From NCBI RefSeq assembly GCF_000282475.1, contig NZ_AKJF01000123.1, forward strand, positions 1 to 64,000: 64,000 nucleotides of DNA. The letters are read 5' to 3'. Origin of the DNA: Pseudomonas sp. GM78 (lineage in GTDB: Bacteria; Pseudomonadota; Gammaproteobacteria; Pseudomonadales; Pseudomonadaceae). The notes under the pieces were generated by a model. That model worked only from the letters and a program-made list of their open reading frames with translations, was not told where the DNA came from and ran no database searches. Below are positions 52,606-60,509 of the stretch, one piece after another (position 1 is the first letter of the stretch; every line of letters begins with the position of its first letter). Both the position numbers and the translations under genes were made by a program.

Positions 52606-53280
52606 ATGCAGCCCTTCGTAATTGCTCCGTCGATTCTTTCCGCCGACTTCGCCCGCTTGGGCGAAGAAGTGGACAACGTCCTGGCTGCCGGTGCCGACTT
52701 CGTGCACTTCGATGTCATGGACAACCACTACGTGCCGAACCTGACCATCGGTCCGATGGTCTGCTCGGCGCTACGCAAGTACGGCGTGACCGCGCCGATC
52801 GACGCGCACCTGATGGTCAGCCCGGTGGACCGCATCGTCGGTGACTTCATCGAAGCCGGCGCGACCTACATCACCTTCCACCCGGAAGCTACCCAGCACG
52901 TCGACCGTTCCTTGCAACTGATCCGCGAGGGCGGCTGCAAGTCGGGCCTGGTGTTCAACCCGGCAACGCCGCTGGACGTGCTCAAGTACGTGATGGACAA
53001 GGTCGATATGATCCTGCTGATGAGCGTCAACCCGGGTTTCGGTGGGCAGAAGTTCATCCCTGGCACCCTCGACAAGCTGCGTGAGGCGCGGGCGCTGATC
53101 GACGCGTCGGGTCGTGACATTCGCCTGGAAATCGACGGCGGCGTCAACGTGAACAACATTCGTGAAATCGCTGCGGCGGGTGCCGACACCTTCGTTGCCG
53201 GTTCGGCGATCTTCAATGCACCGAACTACCAGGAAGTGATTGAAAAAATGCGTTCCGAACTGGCGCTGGCTCGCCCATGA
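52606..53280 (+). CDS. rpe: Ribulose-phosphate 3-epimerase
   Basis: Encodes 224 residues from the ATG at 52606 ([19 protein letters not shown]). [17 protein letters not shown] and LEIDGGVN give the metal-binding and catalytic residues of the TIM barrel. It interconverts ribulose-5- and xylulose-5-phosphate. A TATACAAT -10-like element lies near 52561. It overlaps gph by 4 bases. Confidence 0.97.
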
Positions 53281-54095
53281 GTGGCTTTGAGCAGCTGTTC
53301 CCGGGGCGCCTGCCACGGCTGGTGATGTTCGATCTGGATGGCACCTTGGTCGACTCGGTCCCGGACCTGGCGGTGGCTGTGGACAAGATGCTGCTCAAGC
53401 TCGGTCGCGCACCGGCAGGTATCGAAGCGGTGCGTGAATGGGTGGGTAATGGCGCGCCGGTGCTGGTGCGCCGTGCGCTGGCCGGCGGTATCGACCATTC
53501 AACGGTCGATGACGCCGAGGCCGACGGTGCGCTGGAGATTTTCATGCAGGCCTATGCCGATAGCCATGGCTTGACCGTGGTTTACCCCGGCGTGCGCGAT
53601 ACCCTGAAATGGCTGCAAAAGCAGGGCGTCGAGATGGCGCTGATCACTAACAAGCCGGAGCGCTTCGTCGCGCCGCTGCTGGATCAGATGAAGATAGGCC
53701 GATATTTCAAGTGGATCATCGGCGGCGACACCCTGCCACAGAAAAAGCCTGACCCGGCTGCGCTGTTTTTCGTGATGAAAATGGCCAATATCCCGGCCTC
53801 GCAATCCTTGTTCGTCGGCGACTCGTGCAGCGATGTGCAGGCGGCGAAAGCGGCGGGGGTCAAGTGCGTGGCCTTGAGCTACGGCTATAACCACGGGCGT
53901 CCGATCGCCGAAGAATTGCCGGCCCTGGTGATCGACGACCTGCGTAAGCTAATTCCCGGTTGCCTGGATCCGGCCGCTGAGATAACGTTGGCCGACGCTG
54001 TTCAACCCCCTTCTGGAAACGCCATCGTGGTGGTCACTCGCAAACTCTGGATGAAAGTCATCAAGGCCCTGGCCCGCTGGCGTTGGCGCGCCTGA
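53277..54095 (+). CDS. gph: Phosphoglycolate phosphatase (HAD family), with C-terminal trp leader extension
   Basis: Encodes 272 residues. [16 protein letters not shown] (nucleophile Asp), ITNKPERF, and [16 protein letters not shown] are the HAD motifs. It removes phosphate from 2-phosphoglycolate. The HAD fold ends near residue 230. The last 22 codons (from the GTG at 54027) encode ALARWRWRA and its preceding residues, homologous to a free leader peptide ahead of trpG. The gph 3' end therefore seems to double as the trpE leader. Confidence 0.95.
54027..54095 (+). CDS. Putative trpE leader peptide, in frame within the 3' end of gph
   Basis: From GTG 54027, 22 codons end [13 protein letters not shown] with three Trp codons (positions 8, 18, 20) and the same stop as gph. 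A GGAAA element about 9 bases upstream could serve as its own ribosome-binding site. It is the same length as the leader before trpG and shares 14 of 22 residues. Ribosome stalling at the Trp codons, whether from gph translation or separate initiation, would control the following hairpins. Separate initiation is inference. Confidence 0.65.
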   Translation: MVVTRKLWMKVIKALARWRWRA

Positions 54096-54104
54096 CTGAT
54101 CCTG

Positions 54105-54124
54105 GCCGGTTGTCCGGCGCGTTT
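54105..54124 (+). terminator. Putative trpE attenuator
   Basis: GCCGG (54105-54109) pairs with CCGGC (54114-54118) and is followed by GCGTTT. An alternative pairing of CGCGCC (54088-54093) in the leader with GGCGCG (54116-54121) would break this stem, as expected of an antiterminator. Stems were found by eye only. Confidence 0.5.
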
Positions 54125-54164
54125 GCATACCTGACTGTTTGACCCTCAAGCCACGAGGCACCTC

Positions 54165-55646
54165 ATGATCCGCGAAGAATTCCTGCGTTTGGCCGCTGCC
54201 GGCTATAACCGCATCCCGCTTGCCTGCGAAACCCTGGCCGACTTCGACACGCCGCTGTCGATCTACCTGAAACTGGCCAACGAGCCCAACTCCTATTTGC
54301 TGGAGTCGGTGCAGGGCGGCGAGAAGTGGGGCCGTTACTCGATCATCGGCCTGCCGTGCCGCACCGTACTGCGTGTGCATGACCATCACGTCAGCGTGAC
54401 CATCGACGGTGTCGAGACTGAAAGCCACGATGTAGAAGACCCACTGGCCTTCGTCGAAGCCTTCAAGGCCCGTTACAACGTGCCGACCATCGCCGGTCTG
54501 CCGCGCTTCAACGGCGGCCTGGTGGGCTATTTCGGTTATGACTGCGTGCGTTATGTGGAAAAGCGTTTGGGCAAGTGCCCGAACCCGGACCCGCTGGGCG
54601 TACCGGACATCCTGCTGATGGTGTCCGACGCCGTGGTGGTATTCGACAACCTGGCCGGCAAGATGCACGCCATCGTCCTGGCCGACCCGGCGCAGGAAGA
54701 CGCCTTCGAGCAAGGTCGCGCGCGCCTGGAAGAGCTGCTGGAAAAACTCCGTCAGCCAATCACCCCACGCCGTGGCCTGGATTTCAGCAAGCAGCAAGCG
54801 GCTGACCCGGTGTTCCGCTCCAGTTTCACCCAGAGCGATTACGAAAAAGCCGTCGACACCATCAAGGAATACATCCTGGCCGGTGACTGCATGCAGGTCG
54901 TGCCGTCCCAGCGCATGTCGATTGACTTCAAGGCAGCACCCATCGATCTGTACCGGGCGTTGCGTTGCTTCAACCCGACGCCTTACATGTACTTCTTCAA
55001 CTTCGGCGACTTCCACGTCGTCGGCAGTTCGCCGGAAGTGCTGGTGCGGGTCGAAGACAACCTGATCACCGTGCGCCCGATCGCCGGCACCCGTCCACGC
55101 GGGGCTAACGAAGAGGCCGACCTGGAGCTGGAAAAAGACCTGCTGTCGGACGACAAGGAAATCGCCGAGCACCTGATGCTGATCGACCTCGGTCGCAACG
55201 ACACCGGTCGCGTATCGGAGATCGGTTCGGTGAAGCTCACCGAGAAAATGGTCATTGAGCGTTATTCCAACGTGATGCACATCGTGTCCAACGTCACCGG
55301 TCAATTGAAGGCCGGTCTGACGGCGATGGACGCACTGCGGGCGATCCTGCCAGCGGGCACCTTGTCCGGCGCACCGAAGATCCGCGCGATGGAAATCATC
55401 GACGAACTGGAACCGGTCAAGCGCGGTGTCTACGGCGGCGCCGTCGGCTACTTTGCCTGGAACGGCAACATGGACACCGCCATTGCGATCCGTACGGCGG
55501 TGATCAAGAACGGCGAACTGCATGTGCAGGCCGGTGGCGGCATCGTCGCCGACTCGGTGCCGGCGCTGGAGTGGGAAGAAACCCTGAACAAGCGCCGCGC
55601 GATGTTCCGTGCGGTGGCCCTGGCTGAACAAACCCCGAACGCCTGA
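54165..55646 (+). CDS. trpE: Anthranilate synthase component I
   Basis: Encodes 493 residues. [10 protein letters not shown] is the Trp feedback site (LLES). [23 protein letters not shown] and [16 protein letters not shown] are the chorismate-binding and metal blocks. With TrpG it makes anthranilate from chorismate and glutamine. It follows gph by 69 bp, which contain the proposed attenuator. It is separated from trpG by estP. Confidence 0.98.
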
Positions 55647-55654
55647 TCCAAAAT

Positions 55655-55687
55655 AAACGCGGTGCCTGAGAAGGCACCGCGTTTTTT
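55655..55687. terminator. Bidirectional terminator between trpE and estP
   Basis: A 13-bp stem (55655-55667 with 72-84 of the same block) around a GAGA loop has a run of seven T on the plus strand and an A-rich left flank giving T on the minus strand. It lies between the convergent 3' ends. Confidence 0.95.
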
Positions 55688-55709
55688 TGTACCTGCGGTT
55701 TACCGAGGA

Positions 55710-57617
55710 TCAGAAGTCCAGCGCGACCCCAACGCTAATCCACTGCTGGGTAAAGTCATCGTCCTTGCGCAAGGTGTACCCGCCACGCAATGCAAGATCG
55801 GCCGTCAAGTTGTGGCTGACTCCCAGGCTCACGCGATTCAAATGGCTCTGTGGTGTATAGCCATCCAGCGTGAAGCCGAGGGTCGGCAAGCTATTGAGGG
55901 CGATGTTCACCTTCTGCACGTCATCTTCATACTCTCGCTCGTAGGCGTATTCGCCAAACACCTGGGTCTGCGAAGTGATCTGGTACTTACCCTGAAGCCC
56001 GGCGCCGAGACGTTTCGAATCGCGTTTTTGGTCGTCAAAGGTCAGCGCCGTGGAGCGACTGGTATTTTCCGAGTAACCGTCGACTTCCACTTTGGCGTAA
56101 TCGGCGCTGATGAACGGCGACAGGTGCCACTCACTGCCCGGCTGCGCAATGTCGTAGCCCAGGCGCGTGCTGAAGGCCCAGAGATAGCCGTCGGTGTCGC
56201 CTTTCTCCGCACCTTCACCCGCGCCTAGATCGAATTTGCGTTTGAGATCGTCGTAATCCAGCTTGCCGCCGGTCAAGGCGGCATCGGCCCACCAACGGTT
56301 CTGCTGGAACTGGGCGAATGCCGTGGCCAGGTAGCTGTTGAGCTTGTAGTCAGAATCGTTGTTGCCCGCCTCCAGATCCTGACGATAGAAGCCTGCCGCC
56401 ACACCCACGCGCCAGGCTTCATTGAGGCGATAGCTGCCGCCGATGTTCAAGCTGTAGCCGTTGCCATCGGCATCGGCACCACTGCTTTGGTGGTCCACAT
56501 CGAGATGCTGGCCACCCCCGGCCACAATGGCCCGCCATTGGCCGACCGCCTGCCAGCTCTCCCAGTCGGATTGCCATTGGCTGCGCAGCTCATCCTGATG
56601 CGCGCGTAGCGTGGCGTGGGCCATTTCCGGCAGCAGCGTCAGTTCCCAGGGCGCAGCAAGCAAGGAATAGGCGTAGTCGGACACCAGCTTTTGCCCGGCT
56701 TCGGTCGGATGAACCCCATCGTTATAGACCAGCTGGCTGGGGGCCGGGGTGGCGCTGTTGATGCCAAAGGTGGCGTTTTCGGTGCATCCGTCACCGCTGA
56801 AGCAAGTCGCCGTCAGGTTCTGGCCGGTAGCAAAACCGAATCTTGCTGGGTCGGCGAAGGTTTCCTGCAACAACAGCGGAATGTTCAACGGAATGATTTG
56901 GGCATCGATGCCCGCCAACCGAGTGACCAGTTGCCGATTGAAGACCGCGCTCAACTGCGAGGTAGGTCCCTGTAGAGGAGTGCCATTGATGGCAGGTGTC
57001 AGGCCCAGGTCAGGCAACAGCCAGACCATGATGTAGCGGGCGCCGGCCGATTGCAGAACCTGAACGCTGTTGGCGAGTCGGTCCGCCGCGGCATTCGCCT
57101 GGGCGCCACTTTGCACACGTCCCTGAAGAAAGTCGTTACCGCCGCCAGAGAGGTAATACAGCGCGTTCGGATCGGCGCGGAAATTGTTGGCCGGCAAGTA
57201 GCCCGCTCGTGCACGTTCGCCCGTGGCGGATACCGTGGTGATTGAATCGAGGATCTGATCGGTGCGGTAACCGCCGACGGCCCAGTTGTTACCATCGGGC
57301 AGACCCTGGGCGGCGCGTGCGGCTGAAGTCGAAGCGGCGGTCTGGTCATCCGAGAAACCAAGCCTGCCCCCAAGCAGCTGGGTTGAGTTGGCGGAATAGA
57401 CTTCGCCACTGCCGTCCTGATAAGTCGGCCCGGTCCGATTGGTGAAGCGCAGGGTCGAGCCGGGAGGGCCTCCCGTGTCGGTAAACTGCCCCGCATCGTT
57501 GAGGCTGTCACCGAAGACGATGAAGCTCGAATAAGGATTGGGCGCCGCGATCGCCTGTGCGCAGGCCATGGCGAGCAAGCAACCGGCAAGCGGTGCAAAC
57601 AGCGTCTGTCTGATCAT
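55710..57617 (-). CDS. estP: GDSL-type autotransporter esterase (EstP/EstA)
   Basis: Encodes 635 residues from ATG 57617; a TTG at 57623 is less likely. The signal peptide ends near [25 protein letters not shown] holds the nucleophile Ser38, and [12 protein letters not shown] the Asp/His pair. From ~360 a C-terminal autotransporter barrel runs to a final VGVALDF. It is displayed on the outer membrane and cleaves short to medium acyl esters; EstA affects rhamnolipids and motility in P. aeruginosa. It is inserted between trpE and trpG as in P. putida. Confidence 0.92.
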
Positions 57618-57792
57618 GAGCAAGTCCGTTTGTTTATTGTTTTAGTGGGTGAAACGACAGTGCCAAAAAACTATAGAGCCTGATGCCATTCGGCGCGAAC
57701 CTGGCGAATGTTTCACTCGCTTCGATCGCCCCATATTGCACGCTCTGCCCAGCTAAGTTACTGTGCCAAGACGTATAAATGAGACCTTCCCC
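57618..57792. promoter_or_regulatory. Divergent promoter region of estP and the trpG leader
   Basis: This stretch lies between two divergent transcripts. On the minus strand AACAATAA (57634-57641), about 17 bases before the estP ATG, also fits the Hfq/Crc motif. Specific promoter boxes were not assigned. Confidence 0.35.
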
Positions 57793-57861
57793 GTGTTGAT
57801 CGTCAGCAAACTTCTGGATCAAGTCATCAAGGCACACGCCCGCTGGCGTTGGCGCGCCTGA
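57793..57861 (+). CDS. trpL: Putative trpG(DC) leader peptide
   Basis: From GTG 57793, a 22-residue peptide ends QVIKAHARWRWRA with two Trp codons near the stop. It is followed by a GC hairpin and lies 160 bp before trpG. It resembles the 3' end of gph before trpE in length and sequence (14 of 22 residues). Attenuation of trpE and trpGDC has, to my knowledge, been reported in P. putida. The ribosome-binding site is weak, so the exact start (GTG 57793 or TTG 57796) is uncertain. Confidence 0.75.
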   Translation: MLIVSKLLDQVIKAHARWRWRA

Positions 57862-57870
57862 ATCCTTCTG

Positions 57871-57889
57871 CCGGCCCGGCCGGATCTTT
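57871..57889 (+). terminator. Putative trpGDC attenuator
   Basis: CCGGC (57871-57875) and GCCGG (57879-57883) form a short GC stem with a 3-base loop, followed by ATCTTT, ten bases past the leader stop. The stem is short; stability was not computed. Confidence 0.45.
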
Positions 57890-58023
57890 ACCGCTTCGCC
57901 TTCTTTACTCGCAAGACATTGCCCTTTGCTTCGCGATTCCAGCGATCGCCAAAGTACAGGACGCTGCGGGTAAATCATTCGAAGGCTGTATCAAGTCAGT
58001 GAATTCAAGAGGTTCCTAACGCC

Positions 58024-58617
58024 ATGTTGCTGATGATCGATAACTACGACTCTTTTACCTACAACGTTGTGCAATACCTTGGCGAGCTGGGCTCCCAGGT
58101 CAAAGTCGTGCGCAACGATGAACTCACGGTTGCACAGATTGAAGCCCTCAATCCCGAGCGCATCGTCGTTTCTCCAGGTCCTTGCACCCCGACCGAAGCG
58201 GGCGTCTCGATTGATGTCATCAAGCACTTCGCCGGCAAACTGCCGATTCTCGGTGTCTGCCTGGGCCATCAGTCCATCGGCCAGGCCTTTGGTGGTGATG
58301 TGGTTCGCGCGCGCCAGGTCATGCACGGCAAGACCAGCCCGGTATTCCACGAAGACAAAGGTGTCTTCGAAGGCCTGAACATGCCACTGACGGTCACCCG
58401 CTATCATTCATTGATCGTCAAGCGCGAAACCCTGCCGGATTGCCTCGAGCTGACCGCCTGGACCCAATTGGAAGACGGCTCGGTCGACGAAATCATGGGC
58501 CTGCGCCACAAGACCCTGAACATCGAAGGCGTGCAGTTCCACCCTGAGTCGATCCTCACCGAACAGGGTCACGAGCTGTTCGCGAACTTCCTCAAACAAA
58601 CCGGCGGCACGCGCTAA
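58024..58617 (+). CDS. trpG: Anthranilate synthase component II (glutamine amidotransferase)
   Basis: Encodes 197 residues. The glutaminase nucleophile Cys79 is in [11 protein letters not shown], and the His/Glu pair is in [10 protein letters not shown]. It supplies ammonia to TrpE, and in many pseudomonads also to PabB. It heads the trpGDC operon, 9 bp before trpD, and is preceded by the Trp leader. Confidence 0.98.
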
Positions 58618-58626
58618 GGACTTATC

Positions 58627-59676
58627 ATGAATATCAAGACAGCCCTGGGCCGGATCGTCGAGCAGCTCGACCTCAGCACCGATGAAATGCGCGACGTAAT
58701 GCGCGAAATCATGACCGGCCAATGCACCGACGCGCAGATCGGCGCGTTCATGATGGCCATGCGCATGAAGAGCGAAAGCATCGACGAAATCGTCGGTGCC
58801 GTGTCGGTCATGCGCGAGCTGGCGGACAAGGTCGAACTCAAGACCCTCGATGGTGTAGTCGATGTGGTCGGCACTGGCGGTGACGGTGCCAACATCTTCA
58901 ACGTGTCGACCGCGTCGTCCTTCGTGGTCGCGGCGGCCGGTTGCACGGTGGCCAAGCACGGCAACCGCGCGGTCTCGGGTAAAAGCGGCAGTGCCGATTT
59001 GCTGGAGGCGGCCGGTATCTACCTGAACCTGACCCCGGTCCAGGTGGCGCGCTGCATCGATAACGTCGGCATCGGTTTCATGTTTGCCCAGACTCATCAC
59101 AGTGCCATGAAGCACGCCGCCGGCCCGCGCCGGGAGCTCGGTTTGCGCACCTTGTTCAACATGCTCGGCCCGCTTACGAATCCGGCTGGCGTGAAACATC
59201 AGGTGGTGGGTGTGTTCACTCAAACACTTTGCCGGCCATTGGCCGAAGTCCTGCAGCGTCTGGGCAGCAAGCACGTGCTGGTGGTGCATTCGAAGGATGG
59301 CCTGGACGAGTTCAGCCTGGCGGCACCGACCTTTGTCGCGGAACTGAAAAACGACCAGATCACTGAATATTGGGTCGAGCCGGAAGATCTGGGCATGAAG
59401 AGCCAGAGCTTGCATGGCCTGGCGGTGGAAAGCCCGGCGGCGTCCCTGGAGCTGATCCGCGACGCCCTGGGCAAGCGCAAGACCGAAAACGGTCAGAAAG
59501 CTGCCGAGATGATCATGCTCAATGCCGGTGCCGCGCTGTATGCGGCCGACCATGCCAGCAGTCTGAAAGAAGGCGTTGCCTTGGCGCACGATGCGCTGCA
59601 CACCGGCCTCGCTCGGGAGAAACTCGAGGAGCTGGGTGCATTTACCGCGGTATTCAAAGTGGAGAATGAGGGATGA
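58627..59676 (+). CDS. trpD: Anthranilate phosphoribosyltransferase
   Basis: Encodes 349 residues. [15 protein letters not shown] is the PRPP-binding glycine loop, and [19 protein letters not shown] is a second conserved block. It joins anthranilate to PRPP. It overlaps trpC by 4 bases. Confidence 0.98.
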
Positions 59677-60509
59677 GTGTACCGACGGTTCTGGAAAACA
59701 TTCTGGCCCGCAAAGTTCAGGAAGTCGCCGAGCGTAGCGCCCGCGTGAGCCTGAGCGAGCTGGAAAGTCTGGCCAAGGCGGCCGATGCACCCCGTGGTTT
59801 TGCCAAGGCTTTGCTGGCTCAGGCCAAGCTGAAAGAGCCGGCAGTCATTGCTGAAATCAAGAAAGCTTCGCCGAGCAAAGGCGTGATCCGCGAGAACTTC
59901 GTTCCTGCCGACATTGCCAAGAGTTACGAGAAGGGCGGGGCGACCTGTCTTTCCGTGTTGACCGACATCGATTATTTCCAGGGCGCCGATGAGTACCTGC
60001 AGCAGGCGCGTGCCGCGTGCAACCTGCCGGTGATCCGCAAGGACTTCATGATCGATCCGTACCAGATCATCGAAGCCCGTGCCTTGGGTGCGGATTGCGT
60101 GCTGTTGATCGTCTCCGCCCTTGACGACGTGAAAATGGCCGAACTGGCTGCGGTGGCCAAAAGCGTCAACCTCGATGTGCTGGTGGAAGTGCACGATGGC
60201 GATGAGCTGGAGCGGGCCTTGAAAACCCTCGACACCCCGCTGGTTGGCATCAACAACCGCAATCTGCACACCTTCGAAGTCAGCCTGGAAACCACCCTCG
60301 ACCTGTTGCCACGTATCCCGCGCGATCGTCTGGTGATCACCGAAAGCGGCATCCTCAACCGCGCCGATGTCGAGTTGATGGAAATCAGCGACGTCTACGC
60401 GTTCCTGGTTGGCGAGGCGTTCATGCGTGCCGAAAATCCGGGTACTGAACTGCAACGCCTGTTCTTCCCTGAACGCGGCATTCCTGTCAGCGGTTCTACG
60501 CTCGACTGA
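59673..60509 (+). CDS. trpC: Indole-3-glycerol phosphate synthase
   Basis: Encodes 278 residues, the monofunctional form usual in Pseudomonas. [15 protein letters not shown] and [13 protein letters not shown] carry catalytic lysines, and [14 protein letters not shown] and ITESGI complete the phosphate site. It closes the indole ring after isomerisation by TrpF, whose gene is not in this window. Confidence 0.98.

Follow-up and report, generated by a model that had tools for sequence, protein, structure and literature searches.

Two Trp-rich frames at the trp genes of Pseudomonas sp. GM78

In the genome of Pseudomonas sp. GM78, trpE and the trpGDC genes lie apart, and each is preceded by a short frame rich in tryptophan (Trp) codons. 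We examined these two putative leaders, and the origin of the second, in a window of 64,000 nucleotides (nt; the whole stretch of DNA analyzed, contig NZ_AKJF01000123.1, positions 1 to 64,000). The first frame (54027..54095) precedes trpE (54165..55646, assigned from its open reading frame (ORF) and homologues), and the second (57793..57861), which encodes VLIVSKLLDQVIKAHARWRWRA* from a GTG start, precedes trpG (58024..58617, placed by ORF and junction comparison), trpD (58627-59676) and trpC (59673-60509), all on the + strand; the leader frames were recognized from sequence and relatives, and codons 1-9 of trpG are the core of an integration site in other genomes. An initial annotation had proposed two 23-codon frames with a shared ARWRWRA ending at these positions, and this is confirmed: the peptides agree at 14 of 22 residues and the DNAs at 53 of 69 nt (28/42 and 22/24 in two stretches), with the last 24 nt, TGA included, identical. 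The DNA pattern of the ARWRWRA ending, GCNCGNTGGCGNTGGCGNGC, has exactly two matches in the 7.29 Mb genome, both of them the leader frames.

The trpG leader stands alone, with its GTG start and a GAGA ribosome-site-like motif. The Trp-rich frame before trpE is present as annotated but is not a separate ORF: it is the last 22 codons, in frame, of a 272-codon gene for a phosphoglycolate phosphatase-like HAD hydrolase (53277..54095, +; Pfam HAD_2, 7.1e-35, residues 16-199) that we take to be gph, a fusion that had been missed. The HAD-type domains of this ORF cover residues 16-224, and the remaining tail ends in the trpE leader. Pfam gave no match for either 22-residue peptide, and an Rfam scan of the window returned only a tRNA.

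Folding places the start of a hairpin at +12 from the first base of each leader stop, GCCGG-TTGT-CCGGC at 54105..54118 (+) and CCGGC-CCG-GCCGG at 57871..57883 (+), in agreement with the initial annotation; the T-containing stretch said to follow is just GCGTTTGC behind the trpE hairpin or ATCTTTACC, and a terminator scan calls neither. Candidate promoters, each a consensus match only, are TTGCCT-N17-TAACGT inside gph (53960..53988, +) for the trpE leader and TTGCAC-N17-TACTGT (57736..57764, +) for the trpG leader. Between the two operons lie a strong terminator behind trpE (55655..55684, +, terminator scan) and an ORF for an autotransporter esterase-like protein, presumably estA (55710..57623, - strand), which has a tblastn match in split genomes of genus g1.

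Leader conservation and the mode of regulation

At the E-value limits used, trpE was located in 105 of 109 family genomes and 118 of 145 order genomes, and the comparison covered 60 loci from the family, 40 from elsewhere in the order and a further 20 of the genus that were chosen by leader pattern. Genome frequencies refer to a family sample of 61, the window included and the pattern-chosen L133-L152 excluded; the leader sets (76 trpE copies, 39 trpG copies) include those loci and are not independent genomes. The RWRW residues persist among the 76 trpE copies although each of the three Arg codons can be CGC or CGT (42/34, 44/32 and 69/7), so that the loss of conservation that would have refuted the initial annotation was not observed, conditional on detection by a leader finder that required a W-R-W ending. 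Trp codons stand at -5 and -3 from the leader stop; a W at codons 7-9 is found in 58/76 trpE leaders and 0/39 trpG leaders. The latter have GTG or ATG at codon 1 in 36/39 cases and a ribosome-site-like motif in 39/39, and a match to TT....-N16-18-.A...T accompanies all 39, with the exact hexamers of the window in 15. For the trpE leader, the exact hexamers and spacing recur in 16/76 copies and a looser form in 70/76; a stricter promoter scan around this leader called none.

The best hairpin starts +10..+15 behind the stop in 75/76 trpE copies (260/1520 shuffles) and 39/39 trpG copies (123/780 shuffles), and this placing is fixed while the arms change, with 28 different left arms at trpE and 12 at trpG. 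Its folding energy is not exceptional given the base composition (mean z -0.33 and -0.87, respectively). In their Trp codons and placed hairpins, both frames look like the Trp leader peptides of attenuators, as first annotated. Two negative results count against that part of our interpretation: no good U-run directly follows the hairpin (in the window only TTT, the terminator scan calling neither), and folding with a crude stalled-ribosome mask found neither an antiterminator nor the mutually exclusive stems that had been expected around both leaders. No useful consensus emerged when MAFFT alignments of the leaders were analyzed with RNAalifold. In the crude masking model, the median probability of the hairpin in trpE copies was 0.78 when free, 0.28 with a stall at W8, 0.90 at W1, 0.97 at W2 and 0.77 at the stop, and the corresponding values in trpG copies were 0.89, 0.90, 0.97, 0.97 and 0.99; a stall at the two terminal Trp codons does not weaken the hairpin, and in trpE copies only a stall at the codon-8 Trp does. 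From what is known of trpL-type leaders, attenuation, with its detail unsettled, is the leading model, in which the leaders would sense Trp-tRNA.

Might the leaders work without an intrinsic terminator, by Rho-dependent ending or by masking of the trpE ribosome site? We consider this doubtful. It would account for the poor U-runs and for the lack of a stall-dependent switch in folding, and a CCTC...GAGG complementarity at the trpE ribosome site is seen by eye in many sequences, yet the strictly placed hairpin with its 28 different left arms argues against it, as do 3' ends reported beside the trpG upstream ORF (uORF) of P. aeruginosa. That report describes early 3' ends next to a uORF with a GTG start ahead of trpGDC, and they exceed its cut-off only in azithromycin-treated biofilms (PMC8297930).

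The second leader accompanies the split operon

In 34 of the 61 family-sample genomes, trpG lies within 150 nt of trpE, and at 25 junctions of unsplit genomes only 1-13 nt separate the trpE stop from the trpG ATG; such gaps leave no room for a second leader. Where the genes are apart, a second leader precedes trpG in 19 of 23 evaluable genomes; one further genome was unjudged at a contig end, and three had no trpG match. The leaderless four are L054, L075, L080 and L084, with L080 placed here because its leader-like match has no stop behind it, a labelling that gives 8 for split-with-leader and 2 for split-without. Split and unsplit states interleave, with at least 14 changes on a TrpE+TrpG tree, within genera and between close relatives.

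L035 has an unsplit trpE-trpG junction (10 nt from stop to ATG) among split relatives of genus g1, and a return to the unsplit state by recombination is possible. In L309, L310 and L311, which belong to genera g1, g103 and g96, a biotin carboxylase / carboxyltransferase / LamB/YcsF cassette lies between trpE and the leader-trpG unit (assigned by Pfam in L309 and L310; in L311 judged by N-termini and apparently the same), and whole split alleles may move between lineages.

Integrative elements that enter trpG

At loci L064 and L054, trpE is followed by an unsplit-type junction, the first 20 nt of trpG and then foreign DNA, with an intact trpG 210 kb or 30 kb away. The trpG core running into foreign DNA also occurs in IMG/VR contigs, and the strict left-junction pattern is present in 1 of 398 genus genomes (G619). 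The integration point, used by a family of tyrosine integrases, is codons 7-9 of trpG. An integrase ORF of 387-436 codons starts 118-230 nt past the core at 14 of 15 distinct sites (L300 and L303 being one site, and L191, unmatched by the regular expression, unjudged). These integrases are 51% to 100% identical to each other, and Arm-DNA-bind_3, Phage_int_M and Phage_integrase were found by Pfam in all three tested. At the right end of an element, intact trpG is preceded by direct repeats, GCGGGTA, at -73 and -61 and, in Pseudomonadaceae and Burkholderiales, in most cases also by a Trp leader borne on the element; cores are duplicated on both sides of the element, and in L231 the repeats flank the core on both sides as well. 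Across the survey, GCGGGTA lies within 120 nt in 12 of 63 distinct leader-flagged pre-trpG regions (shuffle mean 0.51, maximum 3; rows not independent, and one unsplit genome of another family, L100, passes the loose leader test) and in 2 of 55 leaderless ones, of which one is an element end (L170) and the other comes from an unsplit genome (L044).

L198 and L440 encode spanin, endolysin and tail families close to the leader, and we therefore read these two as temperate phages; the single protein tested in L209 had no match. In a phage collection, all 217 and 173 integrase matches fell below 60% identity, and the leader DNA matched only a pyocin-like record, OQ658366, five further records matching the trpG end only. 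The plasmid matches listed (20 of 31) lay at the trpG end of the query.

The elements carry Trp leaders

Genome G619 holds three leaders: a gph-fused trpE leader (L460), an orphan host trpG leader left of the insertion (L300; VTTVSKLLMRVIKAHARWRWRA, without trpG behind it) and a different leader, VTLVSRLLMRVIKAHARWRWRT, which precedes intact trpG at the right junction and lies on the side belonging to the element (L301/L452). In L064 the host side is an unsplit junction, so that its trpG leader arrived with the inserted DNA. Leader, repeats, core, repeats and integrase are contiguous in L231, with baseplate genes upstream; the order is that expected of a phage attachment site (attP), though it may also be a tandem array or an older right end. 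In five IMG/VR records (39.9-49.1 kb) the integrase and the trpG with its repeats lie at opposite ends, and four of the five carry a Trp leader, the same one in three, with none in L438. Of four integrations seen at both ends (G619, G464, G461 and Piscinibacter sakaiensis), three carry a leader. Piscinibacter sakaiensis 201-F6 (L475) has two leader-repeat-core copies 18.9 kb apart with the integrase between them, and this integrase is 61-63% identical to those of L186, L294, L306 and L307. Promoter forms close to those of trpG leaders precede the element-borne leaders L231, L222, L160, L319 and L396; for L301 and L198 the scan chose other matches. The sequences themselves thus show that elements with this architecture occur and that they bear Trp leaders. 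Two smaller features were noted at element ends: in L301, upstream of the leader on the element, a MITE-like pair of short inverted sequences (GGGTTTGTCTGAAAAG ... CTTTTCAGACAAACCCTAG), and, by eye, a GTG-started short frame without W at the expected leader place in the prophage end L438.

Beyond Pseudomonas, a search of a species-level genome collection for one repeat plus the trpG start gave at least 120 loci, five of which are trpG cores without the remainder of trpG. A leader was called there from a WRW ending and a stop 80-260 nt upstream (a looser W-rich rule, 80/129, was not used), and the counts that follow hold among the matches listed. All 41 Pseudomonadaceae loci have such a leader, many being host copies of the window's clade, and only L319 has both repeats; leaders were also present at 14 of 18 Burkholderiales loci (one too short to judge) and 2 of 14 loci from unplaced Proteobacteria.

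Burkholderiales leaders mostly end in SGWRWRKPSA, and of seven hairpins tested behind them, four have GCGCCC at +13, the others starting at +10, +13 and +18 with different arms. A search for the motif in eight Burkholderiales genomes, of which seven have such a leader, gave two copies in Piscinibacter sakaiensis, both beside trpG cores, two extra non-leader matches in one Rubrivivax, and one match or none in the other genomes; no trpE leader of the exact Burkholderiales motif was thus seen in them. In hosts with trpE in the compared locus, a trpE leader was not found in L407, L401, L331 or L364, and other W-rich frames occur in L437, L404 and L431. On one Burkholderiales contig (JAGWVB010000149.1; L379 and L392), two leader-plus-trpG-core copies occur, one followed by intact trpG, in an order that appears to be the one given.

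Origin of the trpG leader in the window

Where does a second leader come from? The best explanation, to which we give a probability of about 0.6, is that both frames are Trp leaders, the trpE leader being ancestral and fused to gph, and the trpG leader being what is left of an integrative element. On this view the element would have entered trpG at codons 7-9 by means of a tyrosine integrase; its right end would have supplied a promoter and a Trp leader together with a hairpin, a pair of arm repeats and a ribosome site, and so rebuilt a regulated trpG; and the element would later have been lost or replaced, the esterase gene being there now, while the leader and one arm repeat stayed.

The window's own trpG leader probably came by way of such an insertion, and we read it as a fossil because a repeat and an element-like block precede trpG. 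The repeat, GCGGGTA at 57966..57972 (+), is a putative arm-type repeat 58 nt before the gene, to be compared with -61 and -73 in elements. The block, AAGTCAGTGAATTCAAGAGGTT at 57993..58014 (+), is identical at 19/22 positions to the right end of the integrated G619 element (L301), with 0/1000 shuffles as high, and the window segment scores likewise against L160 (G464) and L319; six unsplit control genomes have no match to it. Pseudomonas mandelii, P. frederiksbergensis and P. umsongensis keep GCGGGTA at -58..-60, having been found by that very pattern, which is no frequency.

A number of observations weigh against this origin. Between trpE and trpG the window contains no integrase, no second core and no trpG fragment behind trpE, and of the two arm repeats one is left, displaced by 3 nt, and the second is absent. 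The exact repeat occurs in 3 of 23 genus-g1 rows with a trpG leader (the window, L033 and L149); other g1 rows have, by eye, near forms such as GCGGGTC and GCGGGCA, and L139, L143, L145, L147, L148 and L135 lack even a near form, while the unsplit L044 has the repeat with no leader. The block matches other elements weakly, with 49 (L170), 14 (L198), 29 (L209), 153 (L231), 174 (L438), 124 and 146 (Betaproteobacterial), 46 (L328) and 340 (L369) shuffles per 1000 as high. Two elements, L170 and L438, have no leader, the 210 kb interval of G464 may contain more than one insertion, and among the matches listed from the species-level collection a WRW leader was found at 0 of 47 other loci (Rhodocyclales 7, Nitrosomonadales 7, Lysobacterales 8 and Aeromonadales 6 included). 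Finally, over the first 42 nt, 25 of 39 trpG leaders are nearer some trpE leader than the trpG leader of another genus.

The direction could be reversed: hosts would have split first and gained a trpG leader otherwise, and trpG-targeting phages would later have taken the host leader into their att region. Element leaders do resemble that of the host group, as in G619 (VTLVSRLLMRVIKAH on the element against VTTVSKLLMRVIKAH in the host), and Betaproteobacterial elements carry another version. We nevertheless think this rather unlikely: the unsplit junction on the host side of L064 means that this host had no trpG leader to give, and its relatives L056 and L069 are unsplit; moreover, an arm-like repeat remains in some split hosts.

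Less favored still is a chromosomal duplication that copied the trpE leader beside trpG when trpE and trpGDC parted, with no mobile element involved, an origin akin to the single duplication at the operon split first proposed for this locus. The shared 28/42 and 22/24 nt of the window leaders are what it predicts, second leaders are seen only in split operons, and the nearest-neighbor comparison retains that part of the original claim in genus g1, where 25 of 26 trpG leaders, the window included (0.71 against 0.64 for the trpG leader of another genus), are by raw identity nearest some trpE leader. Set against this, the 13 trpG leaders outside g1, together with L049 (the 1 of 26 in g1), are nearest trpG leaders of other genera and not any trpE leader; the W at codons 7-9 of 58/76 trpE leaders is in 0/39 trpG leaders; the trpG promoter hexamers and the pre-trpG block are common to elements and not to trpE; and the tree requires at least 14 state changes. 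The likeness within g1 could be a true sign of duplication or could reflect local gene conversion between the twins: at codons 7-11 the window's trpG leader departs from the rest of the trpG leaders and is similar to the trpE leader of the window, with small compensating shifts, and LLDQ codons of the window type occur in 11/39 trpG leaders, for which conversion may account. With the repeated state changes, the cross-genus kinship of trpG leaders and trpG-type leaders borne on elements, one duplication at the split is unsupported as stated, and we judge duplication an unlikely source.

Relation to known systems

Extending the insertion origin beyond the window, we tentatively suggest, at somewhat less than even odds, that temperate phages and islands entering trpG carry a Trp attenuator matched to the host group, which keeps the cut operon under Trp control, and that the trpG attenuators and the pyocin/tailocin loci of Pseudomonas are fossils of such insertions. 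If true, mobile elements can carry a metabolite-sensing regulatory RNA whose sole evident job is to keep an interrupted host operon normally controlled, and such elements have left lasting regulation in a genus; this would also offer a reason why trpE and trpG are separated in many pseudomonads and why phage-derived killing machines lie between them.

E. coli-type trpL attenuators consist of a short leader peptide with Trp codons near its stop, a hairpin behind and a promoter in front. The leaders described here share this plan, with Trp codons a few codons before the stop, and differ in that no antiterminator was found, the U-run is poor, the leader is fused to gph or carried on an element, and a genome has two of them. 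A 2001 paper by Olekhnovich and Gussin names attenuation of trpE and trpGDC in Pseudomonas putida in its title, and very likely concerns the same two leaders. Attenuation of these genes is thus already known, whereas element-carried Trp attenuators are undescribed in the literature searched: our search, which covered few subscription papers, gave among the papers listed none on trpG as an integration target or on element-borne trp leaders.

The trpG integrases and their islands, which we take to be P4-type, resemble P4-type islands and phages in the three integrase domains, the integrase beside the left junction and the direct arm repeats, and the P4 record itself carries an 'attP arm sequence repeat'. 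They differ in entering a biosynthetic gene at its 5' end and in having a right end that can carry a Trp leader, and their matches in the phage collection are all below 60% identity. The SXT element inserts in the 5' end of prfC, and there too the entered gene receives a new upstream region from the element; here, unlike in SXT, what the element brings in has the look of a metabolite-responsive attenuator that fits the operon. It is well known that R/F pyocin and tailocin loci lie between trpE and trpG (PMC8609362, PMC12208367). The trpG-entering elements occupy the same place, and g3 genomes and G619 also have a trpG leader. Descent of the pyocin/tailocin loci from trpG-integrating phages is conjectural, and the g3 copies L171-L176, from a genus group that we assume to be the P. 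aeruginosa group, are without the exact GCGGGTA.

The trpE leader and gph

In the family sample, a trpE leader was recognized in 56 of 61 genomes; the rule missed it in L079, L081, L084, L086 and L087, with degenerate endings in L086 and L087. In 29/61 genomes gph is separate from the leader, its stop lying 176-345 nt (in one case 979) before trpE, and 25 of these have the leader. Elsewhere gph ends in frame within the trpE leader (21/61), crosses it in another frame (8/61, seven with a leader, the exception being L084) or was not found (3/61); L043/L044 belong to the other-frame state, and the separate, fused and other-frame states are all present among sister species of genus g95. On the TrpE+TrpG tree, the fused state requires a minimum of 8 changes. 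Because the leader is present in all three states and the states change so often, the leader appears to be the older, with gph having run into it repeatedly, and the best explanation is that the trpE leader is the ancestral leader of the family. In the lineage of the window, gph would have lost its own stop and so come to run in frame into the leader, which could then be translated by two sets of ribosomes, those completing gph and those initiating at the leader's own putative GTG.

That the trpE-side frame is only the Gph tail, as its reading in frame with gph to the same stop might suggest, is very improbable given that the leader frame remains in 25 of the 29 genomes whose gph stops upstream, that gph crosses it in another frame in seven more, and that gains or losses of the fusion number 8 or more on the tree. 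The fusion is a second oddity of this locus, the last codons of a housekeeping enzyme being the putative sensor of another operon. In L073, L076, L077 and L082 (genus g95), gph passes through the trpE leader out of frame and has its stop about 25 nt short of trpE, a read-through that, judged from the layout, should disturb or couple the attenuator.

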